Position numbers and translations under genes: made by a program. Positions 937-51,001 of a DNA stretch of 64,000 nucleotides are shown piece after piece (the first letter of the stretch is position 1; each line of letters begins with the position of its first letter). Where the stretch lies: NCBI RefSeq assembly GCF_026314295.1, contig NZ_CP111108.1, positions 744,001 to 808,000 on the forward strand, given 5' to 3'. This DNA comes from Caproicibacterium sp. BJN0003 (GTDB lineage Bacteria; Bacillota; Clostridia; Oscillospirales; Acutalibacteraceae). Under the pieces are notes generated by a model, which saw only the letters and a program-made list of their open reading frames with translations, was not told where the DNA came from and made no database searches.

Positions 937-1053
937 AATTTGTCCTTTCCTCATAAAAGCAATAACTAGGCGTTTTAAGTGGTTGCTGGCACTCGATTAT
1001 TGCTTTCATGCTCTGCTTTATTAGGGCTGCAGATTGTCCAAAGATTAAAGGTA

Positions 1054-42885: not shown

Positions 42886-42914
42886 TTGACAGAATCTAAT
42901 TGATAAGATAAAAT
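42886..42914 (+). promoter_or_regulatory. Promoter of the cobalamin-controlled operon
   Basis: TTGACA and TAAAAT with a 17-base spacer. The predicted start near 42921 coincides with the beginning of the riboswitch. Confidence 0.85.
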
Positions 42915-42919
42915 ACAAA

Positions 42920-43056
42920 GAGACCAAAGAGGGAATGCGGTTAAAATCCGCAACAGCTCACTCTACTGTAAAAGGGCAACGAAAATCCAAAAACAGTCAC
43001 TGTCAAAAGCGGGAAGACCGGATGAGTAGGTATTTGGCCCAAAAGTCAGGATATCT
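42920..43056 (+). promoter_or_regulatory. Cobalamin riboswitch
   Basis: The leader shows the cobalamin (B12-box) core: GAGGGAA-tgcGGT-taAAATCCGc-AACAG at 42929-42956, then CTACTGTAAA and, near the end, AAGTCAGGATAT at 43043-43054. An inner helical region with repeated ACAGTCACTGT and GGGAAGACCGG lies between. Binding of a cobalamin would favour the terminator at 43168-43192 and turn the operon off. Which corrinoid is sensed cannot be told. Confidence 0.9.
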
Positions 43057-43167
43057 TTTTGGTTAAAAATAAAAAGCAAATTATTCGGTGAGGAAATTGG
43101 TTGCATAAAAGAAAAAGAAAAGATCCTTCCAGCTGAAATGATCGGAGGGCTTTGTATCCTTTTATTT

Positions 43168-43192
43168 GCGGCCGTAAAAGGCTGCTTTTTTA
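43168..43192 (+). terminator. Riboswitch-controlled terminator
   Basis: GCGGCC pairs with GGCTGC (one G-U) around GTAAAA and is followed by TTTTTTATTTTTT. Lying between the riboswitch and the first start codon, it is the expected expression platform. Confidence 0.75.
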
Positions 43193-43227
43193 TTTTTTAA
43201 GAACAACAAAAGGGGAAGAGAATCAAT

Positions 43228-46200
43228 ATGAAAAAACGGATTGCCAGCCTATTCTGTGCGATTGCCTTTATGTTTGTATTTGTCGTACAGCCTGCGGTAG
43301 CTCAGGAGCCGGTAAAAACAACAGGGATTACGGTAACTCTGAGAGTAGAAGGCTATGGAAACACAGAAGTGCAGCCGGTTAAGGTGACGTTGCCTGCAAC
43401 TTATCAAACCTTTAGCGACTACGGCCTTAACATTAGTCAGGACCCCGGCTATGATACGCCGCTGCATGTGCTTGCGCAATACTGTAAAGACGAATATGGT
43501 GCGGATAAGGATGCAATGTCTGCTCTTATTGATGTAACAGCAGGCGGATTCCTGAATGATTTTTGTAATGATAAGGATAACTGGCCTACTGATGTTTATT
43601 GGATGTATGCAGTTAACCAGGATTCCTGCCCTTCCGACAGCAAAGGGACGGGCTATACGGCCGCGTCTTGTCCAATTAAAGATGGGGATACCGTTGTATT
43701 CTATGCCAGCTGGTATTCTTCTTTTGAACCGAGTAATTATGCTTATTTTGATCAGACGGAAGCTGCAGCGACGATTGATCAGCCACTGACTCTTACCTTA
43801 CTTGGAAAAGGAAATATGTCGGCTCAAAGTACGGCAGCCGCTATTGATGGAGCAACTCTTCTCCTTTATGATCAGAATGGACAGGCGCTTTCCAGCAGTG
43901 ATTATACCCTTTCTTCTGCTAACACAGGAGCAGACGGAAAAGATTCCATTACTTTTCATAAAGCTGGCACCTATTTTGTCAGCGCAGAGAGACAAAGTAC
44001 TCTATGGTATGATAGTAAGGGAAACTATGCCTATAATATCAGCAATCCAAGCTGCAAAGTAACCGTTACTCAAAATCAACCAGAAAGTTCTTCTTTATCG
44101 TCTTCCTCTCAAAGCTCTTCTTCTGAGGAGTCTTCACAGGTTTCATCTTTACCGGTTTCTTCTAATAGTTCTAGTGGTTCTAGTTCGTCAGGGGAAACAC
44201 CAGTAGCCCTTTCTTCCCAATGGCCGCAGCATCTTGGAAATGCACAGAATAATGCTACCACTTTAGCTTCCACTCCTGTTGATGGAAAGCTGCTTTGGGA
44301 AAGTCAATGCAAGAATCCAAATTCGTGGGGTGGTTATGCAGGTTCTCCGCTTTTAGTCAATGGTCAGATTTATGTAGCACGGGATAATGAAGTTCAAATT
44401 TTGAATGCTTCTACCGGAGCAATTGAGAAATCACAGAGTCTGGCTTCTTCTCTGGGGTATTATTCTTATCCTACTTACGGCAATGGAAAACTGTTTGTTC
44501 CTTTGGGGAATGGGCAGATTGAAGTGCTGAATGCTTCTACCTTGGAACCTCTTTTTATCACGGAACTGATGACGGATGGTTCCGGTAATCCAAAATATCA
44601 GGGGCTGTCTCCGGTTTACTATGATGAGGCAGACGATATGTTTTATGTGGGATTGACTGATGCTTCGAGCACTGGCACTTTTGCAGCATATTCGGCAGAA
44701 GATACGGACAGCACAAAGGGAACGGAAACGATTTCGCCCAAATGGACATACGGGACCGGCAGCTATTATGGAGCTGGTGCAGTAAAAATAGAGGATCGTA
44801 TTTATTTTTGCGGGGATGATGGAGTCCTTGTTTCTGCTGATGCAAAAACGGGAAGCGATCAGTCTACCTGTCAACTTGGAAAAGTTCGTACTTCACTGGT
44901 TTCTGCGCAGGGATTTCTTTGGGCAGCTACAGATGACGGCGTGCTTTATAAAGTAACGCCAGGGGAAAACCCACAGATCGCAGGTTCCGTATCGCTGCCG
45001 GCCAGTGCAAAAACAAGCCCGATTGTGGTTGGCGGAAAAGTTTTTGTAGCGGGCGGTACATATGGACAAGCTGGTTACCTAAAAGCGTTTGATGTTAATG
45101 ATTTATCAGAAATCGCTTCACAGACGCTGGAAGATGGTGCCTGCTACGGAATGCTGGTGGCGCCGGATGCTGTTTCCAATGAGATGTGTGTTTATTTGAC
45201 ACAGAATAATAATCCCGGTGCATTATATTTGGCACGGTTAAACGGAAATTCTTTTACATTTTCGACTTTATATCAACCGGCGGATTCTCAGCAAAATTAT
45301 TGCATGAGCATCGTTGCGGCTGACAATAACGGGACTCTTTATTATGGAAATGATTCGGGGGTGCTGTTTGCAATTACGAAGAATGAAAATCCGCAGCCAC
45401 CAGCTCCAGAATCATCTTCTTCCTCTGCTTCTCCCAATCCTACTTCCTCAGAACAAAATGGGGAAAGCTCTTCACAGGGTTCGGAGAATGGAAACCAGGA
45501 TGTCAGCAGTGATCAGAATAGCTCTGAAACCGAAACCGCTTCTAGTGAGAAAACTACAGAACAAACGCCGCTTGGAGCGATTTGGCAAGCACTTAACGGT
45601 CAAAGTGGAGAGAATGATGATGAGAATAATCTAACGGATTCGATTGCACAAAAGGTTCGTGAAGCAGGACAAAATGGGCAGGTATTACTTTCTATTGCCA
45701 AAAAAGACGGAGAGCTTTCTTCTCAGACCTTTTCAGAACTGAAGAAGTATCCGAATCTGCGCCTTTCAGTAGATGCAGGCAATTATGCGGTCAGTTTTTT
45801 GGGGCAGGATGTGCTTGATCCCACAGAAGGACTGCGGCTTGGAATTACGGTCCTTTCGGATGGAGAAACAAAGGCAAAGCTTCCAGATAATATGGGCAAC
45901 CATCTGATTATTCGTTTTGCGGATAGTGGAAAGCTTCCGGCTAAAACAACGGTGGTTTATCGTCTGCCGGAGTCCATGCAGAATGAGACCACCATTTATG
46001 TTTATCGTTTGACCGATGGTCAGGATCCACAGTTCTTACAGCAGGCAGTTGTTGATAATAAATGTGTGATGTTTACTACGGAATATGGTGGAGAATATCT
46101 TTTTACAACAGCAAAATTAGGGACTGCAGCCACCGATTTGAAAGCTGGGAACGGTTCCAATCAACTCTCTCAGGGAATGGACAATTCTACTGTTTTTCAG

Positions 46201-46299
46201 ATCCCGGTGTGGGCTTATGTCACTTTTGCAGTTGGAATTCTTGCGATTGTTGGAGTCGTGATTTATTTAGTTCATTGGAAGAACCGAAAAGAGGAGTAA
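43228..46299 (+). CDS. Membrane-anchored surface protein: DUF4430 + Ig-like + PQQ-type beta-propeller
   Basis: A 1023-residue exported protein. Residues 1-25 are a signal peptide ending 'QPAVAQ'. Residues about 30-165 form a DUF4430 domain ('ITVTLRVEGYGNTEVQPVKV', 'YWMYAVNQDSCPSD', 'IKDGDTVVFYASWYSS'). About 170-285 look like an Ig-like strand domain. A Ser-rich linker (about 288-330) leads to a PQQ-like beta-propeller (about 332-720). Then come another Ser/Glu linker, a C-terminal beta domain (about 800-970), and one transmembrane helix (about 993-1015) with a basic tail. DUF4430 is related to the C-terminal domain of transcobalamin. First gene after the cobalamin riboswitch, so it probably captures a corrinoid at the surface. 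Confidence 0.85.
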   Translation: MKKRIASLFCAIAFMFVFVVQPAVAQEPVKTTGITVTLRVEGYGNTEVQPVKVTLPATYQTFSDYGLNISQDPGYDTPLHVLAQYCKDEYGADKDAMSALIDVTAGGFLNDFCNDKDNWPTDVYWMYAVNQDSCPSDSKGTGYTAASCPIKDGDTVVFYASWYSSFEPSNYAYFDQTEAAATIDQPLTLTLLGKGNMSAQSTAAAIDGATLLLYDQNGQALSSSDYTLSSANTGADGKDSITFHKAGTYFVSAERQSTLWYDSKGNYAYNISNPSCKVTVTQNQPESSSLSSSSQSSSSEESSQVSSLPVSSNSSSGSSSSGETPVALSSQWPQHLGNAQNNATTLASTPVDGKLLWESQCKNPNSWGGYAGSPLLVNGQIYVARDNEVQILNASTGAIEKSQSLASSLGYYSYPTYGNGKLFVPLGNGQIEVLNASTLEPLFITELMTDGSGNPKYQGLSPVYYDEADDMFYVGLTDASSTGTFAAYSAEDTDSTKGTETISPKWTYGTGSYYGAGAVKIEDRIYFCGDDGVLVSADAKTGSDQSTCQLGKVRTSLVSAQGFLWAATDDGVLYKVTPGENPQIAGSVSLPASAKTSPIVVGGKVFVAGGTYGQAGYLKAFDVNDLSEIASQTLEDGACYGMLVAPDAVSNEMCVYLTQNNNPGALYLARLNGNSFTFSTLYQPADSQQNYCMSIVAADNNGTLYYGNDSGVLFAITKNENPQPPAPESSSSSASPNPTSSEQNGESSSQGSENGNQDVSSDQNSSETETASSEKTTEQTPLGAIWQALNGQSGENDDENNLTDSIAQKVREAGQNGQVLLSIAKKDGELSSQTFSELKKYPNLRLSVDAGNYAVSFLGQDVLDPTEGLRLGITVLSDGETKAKLPDNMGNHLIIRFADSGKLPAKTTVVYRLPESMQNETTIYVYRLTDGQDPQFLQQAVVDNKCVMFTTEYGGEYLFTTAKLGTAATDLKAGNGSNQLSQGMDNSTVFQIPVWAYVTFAVGILAIVGVVIYLVHWKNRKEE

Positions 46300-46303
46300 A
46301 AGT

Positions 46304-47002
46304 TTGAAAAGTCGTTTTGGTGTTTTTATTGTTTGTTTTTTAAGCATCCTTCTTTTTTCAGGCTGTTCTAAGGAAAAAATAGCGGCGCCTCAAGTCCCTT
46401 CCGACGTGGTATCTTCACAAGCTTCTTCGGAAGAACTGCAGCAGGGATCTATTCCATCGGAATTAATGCCTGGAGGTTTATTATCAGAAGAACCTTCTTC
46501 TGATAAGGTGGGGGCTTCTTCTCAAGAAACGCAAGATAATGAGAGTACTGTATCTGCACAAAAGGGGCAGGCAACTTCTCAAAACGAAGGAGCAGCAAAA
46601 GTCGGAAATAGTGAGTCTGGTGCTGGCGAGGCACAGACGCAAGAAAATCATGATGTTCCGGCGCAGCAGATTACAGTTTCTTTTACCATTGATTCTTCTG
46701 CCGCTGCAGCAAAGGGAAAAAGTGGACCTGCTTTTTCTTCCTCTGTGACATTAAGTCCCGGTGCTACCGCTTTGGATGCACTGATGGCTTCCGGTGTTTC
46801 CGCAGATGTTTCTGGTGGCTATGTTGCTGGAATTGGCAATCTATACGAGAAGGACTGCGGTTCTATGAGCGGCTGGCTTTATGCAGTTAACGGTCATGCT
46901 CCCAATGTGGGCTGTGGCAGTTACGCTCTCAATAACGGTGATTCTGTGCGCTTTATTTATACCTGTAACATGGGTAAAGATGTAGGATATGGAATTGGTT
47001 AA
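46304..47002 (+). CDS. DUF4430 lipoprotein (candidate corrinoid-binding protein)
   Basis: A 232-residue lipoprotein. TTG start with GAGGAG seven bases upstream; lipobox 'LLFSGC' puts Cys at about residue 22. A 100-residue Ser/Gln-rich tether follows. Residues about 125-232 are a compact DUF4430 domain with the family core 'MSGWLYAVNGHAPNVGCG', 'SYALNNGDSVRFIYTC'. It lies four bases after the large surface protein gene and 19 bases before the ECF S-component gene. It may hand ligand to the transporter. Confidence 0.85.
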   Translation: MKSRFGVFIVCFLSILLFSGCSKEKIAAPQVPSDVVSSQASSEELQQGSIPSELMPGGLLSEEPSSDKVGASSQETQDNESTVSAQKGQATSQNEGAAKVGNSESGAGEAQTQENHDVPAQQITVSFTIDSSAAAAKGKSGPAFSSSVTLSPGATALDALMASGVSADVSGGYVAGIGNLYEKDCGSMSGWLYAVNGHAPNVGCGSYALNNGDSVRFIYTCNMGKDVGYGIG

Positions 47003-47021
47003 AAAGGATTGGATTTAAAAC

Positions 47022-47729
47022 ATGAAACGAGCTTCCCTTTTGCGTATTTTTGAGGCAGCGGCCGTTATTTTGCTGCCGATAGCGTTGGTGGGTTCGGCGT
47101 TTTTAGAGGCGGAAGCTGCTGCTGCGCTCAGTCTTTTGTGCGTAGGATTGGCGCTGACGCCTTTTCTTTTATCGTTTGAAAATAAAAAACCGCGTCCCAG
47201 AGATTTGGTTCCGATTGCAGTGATGAGTGTAATTGCGGCTTTAGGAAGGACCCTTTTTTCGGCGATTCCAAGTTTTCAGCCTGCGAGTGCGATTATTCTG
47301 ATCACGGCGATTGCATTCGGCCAAGATGCCGGATTTTTAACGGGCGCTTTAACGGCACTTTCGAGTAATTTGCTTTTAGGACAGGGACCGTGGACTCCAT
47401 GGCAAATGTATGCGTGGGGGATGATTGGCTTTTTTGGAGGTCTGCTTTACCGAGCAGGCTTTTTTCGAAAACGCTTTTTTTTGCTTCTTTTTGGATTTAT
47501 CAGCGGAATCCTTTTTGGATGGTTTATGGATTTGTGGTATGTCCTTGGATTTATCCGCCCCGTAAAATTTGCCGCTTTTTTAGCAGCTTTTGCTTCCAGT
47601 GCGTGGATGGATGTAGTTCACGGGATTTCTACCGTACTATTTCTTTTGCTTTTGGAAAAACCATGGGGTAAAAAGCTGTATCGGATTCAGGAAAAATATG
47701 GGATTGGGCCGGAGGTAAAAGAAAAATGA
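47022..47729 (+). CDS. ECF transporter S component (CblT-like, corrinoid or precursor specificity)
   Basis: A 235-residue membrane protein with six hydrophobic segments. The central region 'RDLVPIAVMSVIAALGRTLF', 'SAIILITAIAFGQDAGFLTG', 'NLLLGQGPWTPWQMYAWG' matches what I recall of the CblT group of predicted B12-related S components. Genomic context (cobalamin riboswitch upstream, EcfT and EcfA genes downstream) supports corrinoid, dimethylbenzimidazole or related transport. It overlaps ecfT by four bases. Confidence 0.85.
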   Translation: MKRASLLRIFEAAAVILLPIALVGSAFLEAEAAAALSLLCVGLALTPFLLSFENKKPRPRDLVPIAVMSVIAALGRTLFSAIPSFQPASAIILITAIAFGQDAGFLTGALTALSSNLLLGQGPWTPWQMYAWGMIGFFGGLLYRAGFFRKRFFLLLFGFISGILFGWFMDLWYVLGFIRPVKFAAFLAAFASSAWMDVVHGISTVLFLLLLEKPWGKKLYRIQEKYGIGPEVKEK

Positions 47730-48637
47730 AAGAAGAACCGATTTTTTCTACATTGCACCCCGGTTTACTTTTCTTTTATTCTTTTACAATTGCCATCTTT
47801 GCAATGTGCAGTCTAAATCCACTTTACCTTGGAACTAGCCTGGTGGCAGCAGTGCTGTCATATTCTTTTTATTTTTGTGTAAAAAGAGCTTTGCACATTT
47901 TTATAGAGGGTCTTCCAGTGGCTTTTGTTTTTGCTGCTTTTAATGTGTTTTTTAATCATCGTGGAAAAACAATTATGTGTCGTTTATTTGGTTCCGCAAT
48001 CACGCTGGAATCGTTCCTTTATGGACTTTGCAGTGGAATTATGCTTTTAATGGTTTTAATGTGGTTTCGCTGCATGGATGTCCTTTTGACGACGCAGAAA
48101 TTCTTGTATCTTTTTGGACGAAGATTTCCAAATCTTGCCCTCCTCTTATGTATGACGCTGAGGCTTTTTCCAAAAACAGAAGAACGAATTCGCTGTATTC
48201 GTCAGGCGCGGCATAGTTTGGAATCTACGTTCGACCACTTTGAGGATAAAATTAAAAATGGAATGCGCCATATTTCCTGTTTGCTCGAATGGTCTATGGA
48301 AGACGGTCTTGATACGGCCGATTCTATGAAAGCGCGGGGTTATGGAAGCATGGAGCGAACTTGCGGAGAAGAGTATCCGTTTACCGGGAAAGATTTTTTC
48401 TGGCTCATTGCTTTTTTGATTCTTACTTTTCTTTCTGCCTTTGCAATTTTTGGGAAGAATTCTGTGATGCAGTATTTTCCAGGACTCCATTTTTCTGCGG
48501 ATATTTGGTCCATTATTTTAGCAGCTTTTTACTTCGTTTTTTTGATTCTTCCGGTTTTATGGGAGAAAATCTCAGAAGTTCGGCTCTTTTGGGCGCAGAA
48601 AAAAATCCAGGACAGAAGGAAAAAATCCTATGAATGA
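47726..48637 (+). CDS. ECF transporter transmembrane component EcfT
   Basis: A 303-residue membrane protein with five to six helices. The cytosolic coupling region shows 'ADSMKARGYGSMERT' (the conserved ARG motif of EcfT) and an upstream 'IRCIRQARHSLEST'. It links S component to the ATPases. It overlaps both neighbours (four bases with S component, eight with the ATPase gene), indicating a dedicated, co-translated transporter rather than a shared module. Confidence 0.9.
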   Translation: MKEEPIFSTLHPGLLFFYSFTIAIFAMCSLNPLYLGTSLVAAVLSYSFYFCVKRALHIFIEGLPVAFVFAAFNVFFNHRGKTIMCRLFGSAITLESFLYGLCSGIMLLMVLMWFRCMDVLLTTQKFLYLFGRRFPNLALLLCMTLRLFPKTEERIRCIRQARHSLESTFDHFEDKIKNGMRHISCLLEWSMEDGLDTADSMKARGYGSMERTCGEEYPFTGKDFFWLIAFLILTFLSAFAIFGKNSVMQYFPGLHFSADIWSIILAAFYFVFLILPVLWEKISEVRLFWAQKKIQDRRKKSYE

Positions 48638-50222
48638 ATTAGTCAAACTTTCTCATTTTTCATTTTATTATCCAAAGCAGTTGTCTCCAGCGGTCCGAGA
48701 TGTGACACTGACAATTAAGAGTGGCGAATTCTTTTTGCTTTGCGGTGCTTCCGGCTGCGGAAAAAGTACGCTTCTGCGCAGCTTAAAGCCTCAAATTACG
48801 CCGCATGGAGTAATGGAGGGGGAACGGACTTTTAAGCTTTCCAAAAATTTTGATACCGATCAGACTGCTTCTGAGATAGGCTTTGTTTTTCAAGATCCGG
48901 AAAATCAAATCGTGACAGATACGGTTTCTCATGAATTGTCTTTCGGTTTGGAAAATTTAGGACTGCCTCCCGCTGAAATTCAGCAAAGGGTCGCAGAAAC
49001 CTCTTTATTTTTGGGCATTGATCATTTGATTCAAAAACCGGTCAACGAGATTAGCGGCGGGGAAAAACAGCTTTTAAACTTGGCAGCGATCCTTGCGATG
49101 CGCCCAAAGCTGCTTTTGTTAGATGAACCGACAGCTCAGCTTGACCCGGTTGCAGCGAAACATTTTCTGGAGCTGCTTTTAAGGGTGAACCGCGAAATGG
49201 GAATTGCAGTGATGGTCAGCGAGCATCGTATGGAGGACTTACTGCCAATTTGTGATCAGGTCTGTTTGATGGAAGACGGGGCACTTCATATGCCGCTGCC
49301 GCCGAGAGAGTTTGTGTACAATATTATGGAAAATCCTTCTCATCCATTTTGGGAGGCAATGCCGGCGGCTTCCAGAATAGCTTCTCAAAACGGTGCTTTA
49401 GATGAGAAAATACCGCTGACTGTGCGGGAGGGCAGAGTGTTTTTGCAGAATTTTCCGGAAGGAGAAATGAAACTGCCGACTTGTTCAAAAACAGATTCGA
49501 TATTTTTCTGTAAGGACATTTGGTTTCGTTATCGAAAGGAATTGCCTTTTGTGCTGCGCGGAGTTCATTTTTCGCTGCATAGTGGAACAATTCATGCTCT
49601 TCTCGGGGGAAACGGTGCAGGGAAAAGCACTTTGTTTCAGCTACTTTCCGGAGAACTTTTTCCGCAGAGGGGGAGTATCAAATGGAAGCATCCGAAGCCG
49701 CGCACTGCCTTTCTGTGGCAGGAACCGAAGGCAATGTTTAGTCGTGATACCGTAAAGGAAGAGCTCCTTTCACAAAACGGTGCATTAGAGCTGGGATTGA
49801 AGATGGGACTGAAGCCGCTTTTTGAGCGTCACCCATATGATTTGAGCGGGGGAGAACAGCAGCGGTTGGGCATTGCCCTAGTCCTTGGTATACAGCCGGA
49901 TCTGTTGCTTTTAGATGAGCCGACCAAAGGGCTTGATCCATGGAATAAAAAACTTTTAGCAGAGCTGCTTGATCGTTATCGTCAGCAGGGCGGAACCGTT
50001 TTGTTAACCACTCATGATGTGGAATTTACCGCTCGTTTTTGTGATGAATGCAGTCTCCTTTTCGGAGGGCGGATTGTATCCAGTGCGCCGACGCGTACTT
50101 TCTTTTCTGCCAATGCACTTTATACGACAAATGCGGCACGGATCATGAATGGAAAAATCAAAAATGGACTTTTGTGTGAAGATGTCCGACAGGGGCTGAA
50201 AACGTACAAAAATCAGTTATAA
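48630..50222 (+). CDS. Fused ECF ATPase (EcfA-EcfA' in one polypeptide)
   Basis: A 530-residue protein with two ABC ATPase domains. Domain 1: Walker A 'GASGCGKSTLL', Q-loop 'GFVFQDPENQIVTDTV', signature 'ISGGEKQLLNLAAI', Walker B 'LLLLDEPTAQLDP'. Domain 2 from about residue 290: Walker A 'GGNGAGKSTLF', signature 'LSGGEQQRLGIALVLG', Walker B 'LLLLDEPTKGLDP'. Domain 2 has a 'LWQEPKAMFSRDTV' Q-loop. ECF systems usually have two separate genes; fusion gives a fixed 1:1 pair. End of the operon. Confidence 0.9.
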   Translation: MNELVKLSHFSFYYPKQLSPAVRDVTLTIKSGEFFLLCGASGCGKSTLLRSLKPQITPHGVMEGERTFKLSKNFDTDQTASEIGFVFQDPENQIVTDTVSHELSFGLENLGLPPAEIQQRVAETSLFLGIDHLIQKPVNEISGGEKQLLNLAAILAMRPKLLLLDEPTAQLDPVAAKHFLELLLRVNREMGIAVMVSEHRMEDLLPICDQVCLMEDGALHMPLPPREFVYNIMENPSHPFWEAMPAASRIASQNGALDEKIPLTVREGRVFLQNFPEGEMKLPTCSKTDSIFFCKDIWFRYRKELPFVLRGVHFSLHSGTIHALLGGNGAGKSTLFQLLSGELFPQRGSIKWKHPKPRTAFLWQEPKAMFSRDTVKEELLSQNGALELGLKMGLKPLFERHPYDLSGGEQQRLGIALVLGIQPDLLLLDEPTKGLDPWNKKLLAELLDRYRQQGGTVLLTTHDVEFTARFCDECSLLFGGRIVSSAPTRTFFSANALYTTNAARIMNGKIKNGLLCEDVRQGLKTYKNQL

Positions 50223-50293
50223 TAAAGCTTTTTGCGTTGATTTTTTAGAAGACGTCTATTATACTGATGGTATTTATTTTAGGAGGAAAATCT

Positions 50294-51001
50294 GTGATTG
50301 GAATTATTGGAGCGATGGAGCTGGAAGTTCAAGAAATTCGCTCGGAGATGAAAAATGTTCATACGACTACGATTTTGGGAATTCATTATGATCAGGGGAC
50401 GATAGAAAACGTTCCATGTGTGCTGGCGCGCTGCGGAGTCGGAAAGGTTGCGGCGGCGGCCTGTGCACAGACAATGCTGCTAAAGTACCACCCGCAGCTG
50501 GTGATCAATATAGGGGTTGCCGGTGGCATTGGAGAAGGAATTCAGATCGGCGATTTAGTAATTGCTCAAAAGTTGGTGCAGCATGATATGGATACAACGG
50601 CTGCAGGAGACCCGCCTGGATTTTTAAGTGGCCCAAATTTGATCTATCTGGAAACGGCAGAAAAAGTTCTGAAAACAGCTGTGGACGTTTCTTCTAAATT
50701 TTATCCTTCTCCGGTTTATTGCGGAATTATTGCTACCGGAGACCAATTTGTGGCAGACGGAGAACTGCGCAAAAAAATCTGCGGACAGTTTGATGCGATT
50801 GCCTGTGAGATGGAAGGCGGCGCGGTCGCACAGATTTGCTGGAATGGAAAAACAGATTTTCTGGTTTTGCGGGCAATTTCAGACAGTGCAGATCAAAAGG
50901 CTGTTATGGCATTCCCAATGTTTGCACGTATGGCTGCAAATAGGATGTTTCAACTTTTGCCAAAGCTTTTGCCGGCTTTAGAAGCTCTTTATCATTCTTA
51001 A
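50294..51001 (+). CDS. mtnN: 5'-methylthioadenosine/S-adenosylhomocysteine nucleosidase
   Basis: A 235-residue enzyme with GTG start behind GGAGG. Diagnostic parts: 'IGIIGAMELEVQEIRSEM', 'VINIGVAGGIGEGIQIGDLV', 'IATGDQFVAD', the catalytic Glu region 'AIACEMEGGAVAQIC' and 'LRAISDSADQKA' with the catalytic Asp. It removes adenine from MTA and SAH, clearing by-products of SAM-using enzymes. It is separate from the vitamin operon by about 70 bases and ends at a strong terminator shared with lexA. Confidence 0.95.
   Translation: MIGIIGAMELEVQEIRSEMKNVHTTTILGIHYDQGTIENVPCVLARCGVGKVAAAACAQTMLLKYHPQLVINIGVAGGIGEGIQIGDLVIAQKLVQHDMDTTAAGDPPGFLSGPNLIYLETAEKVLKTAVDVSSKFYPSPVYCGIIATGDQFVADGELRKKICGQFDAIACEMEGGAVAQICWNGKTDFLVLRAISDSADQKAVMAFPMFARMAANRMFQLLPKLLPALEALYHS

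Follow-up and report, generated by a model that had tools for sequence, protein, structure and literature searches.

The window analyzed here, a 64,000-nucleotide stretch of the Caproicibacterium sp. BJN0003 genome (a single contig of 2,458,513 bases; NZ_CP111108.1, positions 744,001 to 808,000), carried a promoter, a cobalamin riboswitch, an intrinsic terminator and five genes, which were separated by small gaps or overlapped according to the coordinates of their open reading frames (Table 1). The genes encoded a large surface protein, a lipoprotein with a DUF4430 domain, an energy-coupling factor (ECF) S component, an EcfT-like subunit and a fused double ATPase. Based on all analyses, it was concluded that this is very probably an operon for the acquisition of vitamin B12, in the form of complete cobamides, by a Gram-positive bacterium in which no CobS was detected.

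Table 1. Positions of the features discussed. Positions without a prefix refer to the window, and those with an L prefix refer to loci of related genomes.
Feature	Position	Strand	Details
Sigma-70-like promoter, TTGACA-17-TAAAAT	42886..42914	+	11/12 consensus positions; identical in related genome G054
Cobalamin riboswitch aptamer, RF00174	42896..43073	+	59.5 bits vs gathering score 31.5
Predicted antiterminator, 5' arm	43099..43111	+	pairs with 43159-43173; identical in G054
Intrinsic terminator hairpin, then T tract	43168..43185	+	hairpin -11.7 kcal/mol
Gene 1, surface protein	43228..46299	+	1023 aa
Beta-propeller of gene 1	44242..45390	+	Pfam PQQ_2, E 1.8e-10 to 1.9e-9
Gene 2, DUF4430 lipoprotein	46304..47002	+	232 aa
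DUF4430 domain of gene 2	46760..46963	+	residues 153-220; PF14478, E 3.6e-15, 56.6 bits vs cut-off 23.8
Gene 3, predicted CbrT-family ECF S component	47022..47729	+	235 aa
Gene 4, EcfT-like transmembrane coupling subunit	47726..48637	+	303 aa
Gene 5, fused double ECF ATPase (EcfA-EcfA')	48630..50222	+	530 aa
5'-Methylthioadenosine/S-adenosylhomocysteine nucleosidase gene	50267-51001	+	begins 45 bases past the operon
GP20-b RNA, Rfam match	967-1039	-	37.2 vs threshold 36.2 bits
Two-gene toroid + DUF4430 unit	L080:7220-9470	-	clear toroid in first gene
Two-gene toroid + DUF4430 unit	L081:3593-5726	+	clear toroid in first gene
Two-gene toroid + DUF4430 unit	L083:4377-6214	+	weak toroid in first gene (E 0.0036)
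Short DUF4430 protein, then CbrT-like S match	L075:6140-7411	-	under a riboswitch
Short DUF4430 protein, then CbrT-like S match	L077:5164-6059	+	

The riboswitch covariance model accepted the leader well above its gathering score, and this match was the single one found for RF00174 in the whole genome. The arrangement of promoter, cobalamin riboswitch, terminator and five packed genes, which had been outlined in a preliminary description made from the sequence alone, was thus confirmed. Promoter and terminator matches were no more numerous in the region than in shuffled sequences (15 vs a shuffle mean of 14.3 and 12 vs 10.4, respectively), therefore each of them counted by its position alone. 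The Rfam alignment began inside the promoter match and its outer helix showed many non-standard pairs. When the RNA was refolded from the expected start site, an outer helix was formed between 42922-42931 and 43055-43064 with pair probabilities of 0.62-0.93, and this pairing, lying just past the expected transcription start, is probably the outer helix of the riboswitch. The predicted antiterminator overlapped the 5' arm of the terminator and its duplex had an energy of -11.1 kcal/mol. The two helices were predicted to be mutually exclusive, and the antiterminator formed in folding once the 3' arm of the terminator was omitted. In the related genome G054, the leader differed little and kept both alternative helices intact, which represents conservation rather than covariation. 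By analogy with the known behaviour of this riboswitch class, the ligand would be expected to favour termination.

The protein encoded by gene 2 contained a lipobox-like FSGC motif, as judged by eye, and its DUF4430 domain was the sole PF14478 match in the genome. The AlphaFold2 model of this domain had a pLDDT of 85.7. Its best Foldseek match was the beta domain of human transcobalamin (5no0, E 3.2e-4, TM 0.74/0.70), followed among the carriers of B12 by haptocorrin (E 8.6e-3) and intrinsic factor (E 2.5e-2); a putative metal-binding protein of Ruminococcus gnavus, 3u7z, was also found (E 9.9e-4). Further, a profile of 36 DUF4430 domains, comprising the window's own domain and 35 others taken from 33 of the 80 named loci described below, was compared with all PDB sequences. 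Six of the seven matches at E<=5 were transcobalamins, the best being transcobalamin-1 (E 0.0052) and transcobalamin-2 (E 0.0058), with the other four at E 0.095-0.92. The domain of gene 2 was modelled as a beta-grasp fold like that of the transcobalamin beta domain, and both the DUF4430 lipoprotein and its kinship to the C-terminal domain of transcobalamin and intrinsic factor, as given in the preliminary description, held. The other domain of transcobalamin is an alpha/alpha toroid. No toroid family matched either of the two window surface proteins at E<=0.1, therefore these proteins were not called transcobalamins.

The product of gene 3 was recognized by Pfam as an ECF S component (PF07155), and no NCBIfam model matched it at E<=0.001. 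When compared alone with the PDB, it gave a sole match at E<=1, which was 6fnp, the CbrT protein of the Lactobacillus delbrueckii B12 transporter (E 1.7e-8). A profile of 24 S components reached the same structure at E 1.3e-18, the next match being the riboflavin protein RibU at 0.032, and FolT was absent from the PDB matches of both the family profile and gene 3 alone (E<=1). Because CbrT was the sole PDB match, the sequence of gene 3 was read as that of a CbrT-like (B12) S component. The protein had been described before as a CblT-like ECF S component; the ECF S part of that assignment stood, and the CblT part was set aside in favour of CbrT, CblT itself being outside the comparison. A folate assignment, raised by the folate-family S model TIGR04518, was likewise set aside as no FolT structure appeared among the PDB matches at E<=1.

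Gene 4 gave no Pfam match for its own sequence. CbiQ was matched by 14 of 20 aligned members of its family, and the protein looks like EcfT, as suggested previously, on the evidence of these relatives. Two ABC_tran ATPase stretches were found by Pfam within the single protein encoded by gene 5, in agreement with the fused double ATPase noted earlier. Its best NCBIfam matches, TIGR04521 and TIGR04520, were under their cut-offs, and TIGR01166 (cbiO) was over its own. The import of cobalamin and cobinamide by ECF-CbrT has been shown experimentally (PMC5997447), and the transporter of the window may, by its sequence relationships, carry cobalamin as well.

The conservation of the neighbourhood was examined in two samples. 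Of 300 genomes sampled from the family of the window's organism, 137 had relatives of the S component (E<=1e-8), and a scan of named genomes kept the best 80 of at least 594 confirmed S relatives, which belonged to Bacillota and Coriobacteriia according to record titles. Genes of the named loci were labelled as DUF4430, T (EcfT-type), A (ATPase) or propeller by profiles iterated from the window's proteins, on the same strand and within 8 kb of S. Of the 80 loci, 67 had DUF4430, 65 had T, 76 had A and 10 had a propeller; more than one DUF4430 gene was present in 34. Many of these loci were cut by contig ends; among the 53 that exceeded 15 kb, the counts were 49 for DUF4430, 47 for T and 51 for A. 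A common gene order, recurring in Bacillota and Coriobacteriia, was DUF4430-T-A-S, and that of the window was DUF4430-S-T-A. Forty loci were also fetched from the family genomes, an S open reading frame was called in 38 of them, and DUF4430 lay near S in 26 of the 38. At the level of whole family genomes, DUF4430 was present in 127 of the 137 S-positive genomes vs 100 of the 163 S-negative ones (p 6.9e-11); these co-occurrence tests (Fisher) ignore phylogeny, and the riboswitch search used in them had strict filters.

Some variation in gene arrangement was observed as well. In some loci, several subunits were read in a single frame: ATPase plus S in L130 and L156, T plus ATPase in L098 and also L099, and all of T-A-A-S in the Gordonibacter pamelaeae locus L105, where the frame was 1247 aa long. 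The genus mate G250 carried T, A and S at one locus (L056, G250:C1:1833780-1850445), and another genus mate, G173, gave no match for S, DUF4430 or the riboswitch. Ten genes lying directly downstream of S-type genes of the relatives were scanned as candidate B12 genes and rejected, since none of the ten matched an adenosyltransferase or cob gene; one was a further ECF S component.

The link to the riboswitch was counted across genomes. In 40 S-bearing genomes, RF00174 was found in 33 (41 matches, 37 over the cut-off) and DUF4430 in 38 (60 matches), when 14 named control genomes gave RF00174 in 8 and PF14478 in 2. Within 10 kb downstream of the 41 riboswitch matches, on the same strand, S was found for 17, DUF4430 for 29 and neither for 11. 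DUF4430 also followed 13 of the 24 riboswitches that had no S downstream. The probability that DUF4430 lies near a given riboswitch by coincidence was estimated at well under 1%, taking genomes of about 2.2 Mb with about 1.5 DUF4430 matches each. At the genome level, DUF4430 was present in 166 of the 193 genomes with a riboswitch and in 61 of the 107 without one (p 4.8e-8).

Additionally, 40 of the 80 named loci, selected for having 9 kb of upstream sequence, were scanned with Rfam. In 24 of them, the 9 kb ahead of S contained a same-strand riboswitch of the cobalamin clan, including one AdoCbl and one AdoCbl-II variant; it was found solely downstream in L110 and L144, and none was found within the locus in 14. 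The whole-genome search for RF00174 in 40 named genomes gave a match in at least 34 and a match over the cut-off in at least 31; distances were counted within the fetched loci and not from these whole-genome positions. Both the riboswitch and the clustering of DUF4430 with S (67/80 named loci) thus recurred outside the window, where the preliminary description had proposed to check the gene order with the riboswitch in other Clostridia. Cobalamin riboswitches of other classes (RF01482 and RF01689) were observed upstream of transporter genes at L118:2940-3083 and L124:5798-5917. In L057 (G101:C4:360376-376966) the riboswitch directly followed S and stood ahead of a DUF4430 gene, and the transporter and the binder look like separate units there.

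Relatives differed in their surface proteins. Ten large surface proteins from the loci examined were scanned, and five of them combined DUF4430 with an alpha/alpha toroid (the toroid of L082 being under the Pfam cut-off), three had a toroid without DUF4430, one had DUF4430 without a toroid and one gave no match. S-layer domains, an LPXTG anchor and immunoglobulin (Ig)-like domains were also found in the surface proteins of relatives. In three family genomes, a riboswitch stood ahead of two separate genes, the second of which was a DUF4430 gene, with the transporter located elsewhere. The first gene encoded a toroid, clear in two units and weak in the third (Table 1), as if the two domains of transcobalamin were split over two genes. 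The toroid was rejected as a proof of descent shared with transcobalamin: when 13 toroid sequences of relatives were combined into a profile, its 21 matches were cyclases and prenyltransferases, with no transcobalamin at E<=0.01. The toroid link was therefore drawn from the domain combination and the fold only. At two further loci, L075 and L077, a short DUF4430 protein (134 or 131 aa) was directly followed by a 167-aa CbrT-like S match with no T or A genes adjoining, and these pairs look like a form of the system that draws on a shared ECF module.

Gene 1 of the window encoded a protein with a signal peptide and a single C-terminal membrane helix, both judged by eye. Its beta-propeller was modelled largely confidently by AlphaFold, and the structure matched BamB and other propellers, including several eight-bladed designs; in the comparison by Foldseek and VIA, BamB, YxaL and designed propellers ranked first. 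BtuG was absent among the 50 matches listed in Foldseek and in VIA, an absence compatible with BtuG kinship. We know of no B12 binding by BamB/YxaL-like propeller folds. A weak Ig-like region was also present, and the C-terminal region had no Pfam match. DUF4430 was not matched in gene 1 by Pfam at E<=0.1. An iterated profile placed it in the N-terminal part at E 0.0036, hhalign gave a probability of 87 over 30 columns only, and a BLAST match at E 3e-7 was obtained to a DUF4430 surface protein of Lentibacillus; the AlphaFold model of the N-terminus had a pLDDT mostly below 50. The N-terminal region is thus likely, though unproven, to be DUF4430. The previous account of gene 1 as a DUF4430/Ig/beta-propeller protein of 1023 residues was borne out for the propeller and weakly supported for DUF4430. 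The protein may act as a wall-spanning receptor.

It could be argued that the surface proteins serve mainly for adhesion or for the scavenging of corrinoid-bound nutrients, with the propeller as the functional head and DUF4430 as a structural part. The BamB/YxaL-like propeller and the weakly matched DUF4430 region of gene 1 would fit such a role. However, DUF4430 was the steadier partner, standing by S in far more named loci than the propeller (67 vs 10 of 80), and several relatives carried toroid domains, the partner domain in transcobalamin, instead. We consider this role quite unlikely.

The host's need for B12 and its biosynthetic abilities were judged from the genome. The single protein with a PF02310 B12-binding domain in the genome was MetH-like, and it stopped before the reactivation part of the model (620 residues scanned). 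A nucleosidase gene of the methionine cycle lay downstream of the operon (Table 1), a neighbour that fits the use of B12 by MetH, and G054 had an open reading frame of similar size at that place. A CobO-type adenosyltransferase was present in the genome, and there was no PduO-type adenosyltransferase match. No CobS match was found in the genome either; B12 enzymes without PF02310 and other B12 biosynthesis genes were outside the search. The host seems unable to make vitamin B12. Since a host without CobS would find it hard to turn cobinamide or a lower base into a cobamide, complete cobamides are the likelier ligand, and the choice among B12, cobinamide and dimethylbenzimidazole, which had been left open before, was narrowed in their direction.

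The alternative that a CblT-like S component takes up a precursor of B12, be it cobinamide, dimethylbenzimidazole or alpha-ribazole, was weighed on the same evidence. CbrT accepts cobinamide too (PMC5997447), and the CobO-type adenosyltransferase would suit this possibility. The nucleotide-loop assembly nevertheless looks incomplete, as there was no CobS match, and the S component matched CbrT in a comparison that CblT lay outside of. Hence, precursor uptake is regarded as very unlikely.

The following course of events was proposed for the acquisition of complete cobamides. At a low intracellular cobamide level, the 43099-43111/43159-43173 antiterminator would form and the five genes would be transcribed, and the binding of a cobamide to the aptamer would let the terminator win. 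The propeller protein, anchored in the membrane, and the DUF4430 lipoprotein would be placed on its outer side, where the DUF4430 domain may capture a cobamide at the cell surface and hand it to the CbrT-like S component. Import would follow once the S component is energized by EcfT and the fused ATPases, and the imported cobamide would most likely feed the MetH-like methionine synthase.

Several observations weigh against this proposal. The terminator prevailed (about 0.9) in the full leader at equilibrium, so that the antiterminator could play its part only while the RNA is being transcribed, and the leader was no more stable than its shuffles (z -0.73). A riboswitch was present within 10 kb upstream at 16 of the 40 family S loci only, and the co-occurrence of S and the riboswitch was insignificant, with riboswitches in 95 of 137 S-positive vs 98 of 163 S-negative genomes (p 0.12). 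DUF4430 also occurred in 100 of the 163 genomes that lacked this S component, and the genus mate G250 had the transporter with no PF14478 or RF00174 match; the binder is therefore not essential to the transporter. The loci were gathered by similarity and are not phylogenetically independent. Among the 24 aligned S components, 14 were matched by TIGR04518 and 12 by a riboflavin model. DUF4430/SLBB domains may bind other ligands, which was suggested for archaea in 2007 (PMC1796856), and one of the two control genomes with DUF4430 was that of a methanogen. No published binding or transport data for these proteins were found in a literature search, which covered few subscription journals.

A transporter for folate, riboflavin or cobalt, with DUF4430 as a separate module sharing the operon, would account for those folate and riboflavin model matches, for the PF07155 match of the window S protein, for cobalamin riboswitches that also precede a cobalt ECF transporter, as in Clostridioides difficile (PMC11477304), and for CbiQ/CbiO-like genes labelled as cobalt-related in 2007 (PMC1796856), but it is highly improbable, because gene 3 found CbrT alone in the PDB at E<=1, the family profile reached RibU at 0.032 and found no FolT although FolT structures exist (PMC4525288), and a single packed operon stood under one riboswitch with the DUF4430-T-A-S order recurring in Bacillota and Coriobacteriia.

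The capture of B12 at the surface of Gram-positive gut and soil bacteria is poorly known. The S component of an ECF transporter binds the substrate itself, and to our knowledge these transporters do not as a rule have an extracellular binder besides it (compare PMC5997447). The point of interest is whether an ECF transporter acts here together with a dedicated extracellular binding protein. We proposed that the transcobalamin-type lipoprotein is a dedicated, riboswitch-controlled capture protein that passes B12 to the ECF S component across Bacillota and Coriobacteriia, and that the two halves of transcobalamin also occur in bacteria, as separate and neighbouring genes under one riboswitch, so that these systems would be the likely source pool of the animal carriers; we give this wider proposal a little less than an even chance. 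With the transcobalamin-type binder and the CbrT-like transporter recurring side by side, in many cases under a B12 riboswitch, a prediction made in 2007 becomes a concrete and testable system. This pairing also bears on the idea that animals obtained their B12 carriers from such bacteria (PMC1796856).

That prediction came from Burroughs et al., who defined the SLBB superfamily and described transcobalamin-type surface proteins of bacteria. These proteins showed fusions to toroids, to Ig domains and to a propeller, frequently had a second paralogue beside them and were encoded in operons with CbiO-like and CbiQ-like genes (PMC1796856). The preliminary description was therefore wrong in regarding the composition as undescribed. 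Its overall view, in which a riboswitch controls corrinoid uptake by a dedicated ECF transporter and a binder related to transcobalamin, was retained, without the CblT assignment and the novelty. The window shared with the systems of 2007 the DUF4430-type surface proteins, a probable propeller fusion, the second paralogue that is frequent there and an operon with a CbiO-like ATPase and a probable CbiQ-like protein. Their hosts usually lacked key B12 biosynthesis enzymes, and the paper proposed that the proteins scavenge B12 or its precursors and that they passed to animals (PMC1796856). In contrast, the available text of that paper tied the transporter genes to cobalt and did not mention riboswitches, when a CbrT-like S component and a counted riboswitch link were found here. 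As far as the searches reach, the riboswitch link as counted, the CbrT assignment and the two-gene units of toroid and DUF4430 are new, and the CobS result is a further addition; no paper on the riboswitch link, or combining SLBB, cobalamin and riboswitch, was found in a search that covered few subscription journals, so this absence is a weak one.

The BtuG, BtuH and BtuJ proteins of Bacteroides are comparable, being surface lipoproteins that are likewise under riboswitch control and capture B12 next to a transporter (PMC6143338, PMC10404256, PMC13398666). They differ in belonging to an outer-membrane TonB system, and the window propeller is BamB-like. The beta domain of animal transcobalamin, haptocorrin and intrinsic factor is related to DUF4430 by sequence profile and fold, whereas their toroid was not found in the window's proteins and was present in some relatives. 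The closest transporter is the ECF-CbrT of L. delbrueckii (6fnp), with a homologous S component, an EcfT-type subunit and two ATPase domains (PMC5997447). The S component of the window is longer (235 vs 182 aa), its ATPases are fused, and both the module and the extracellular binders are encoded together with S, unlike in the L. delbrueckii system (PMC5997447).

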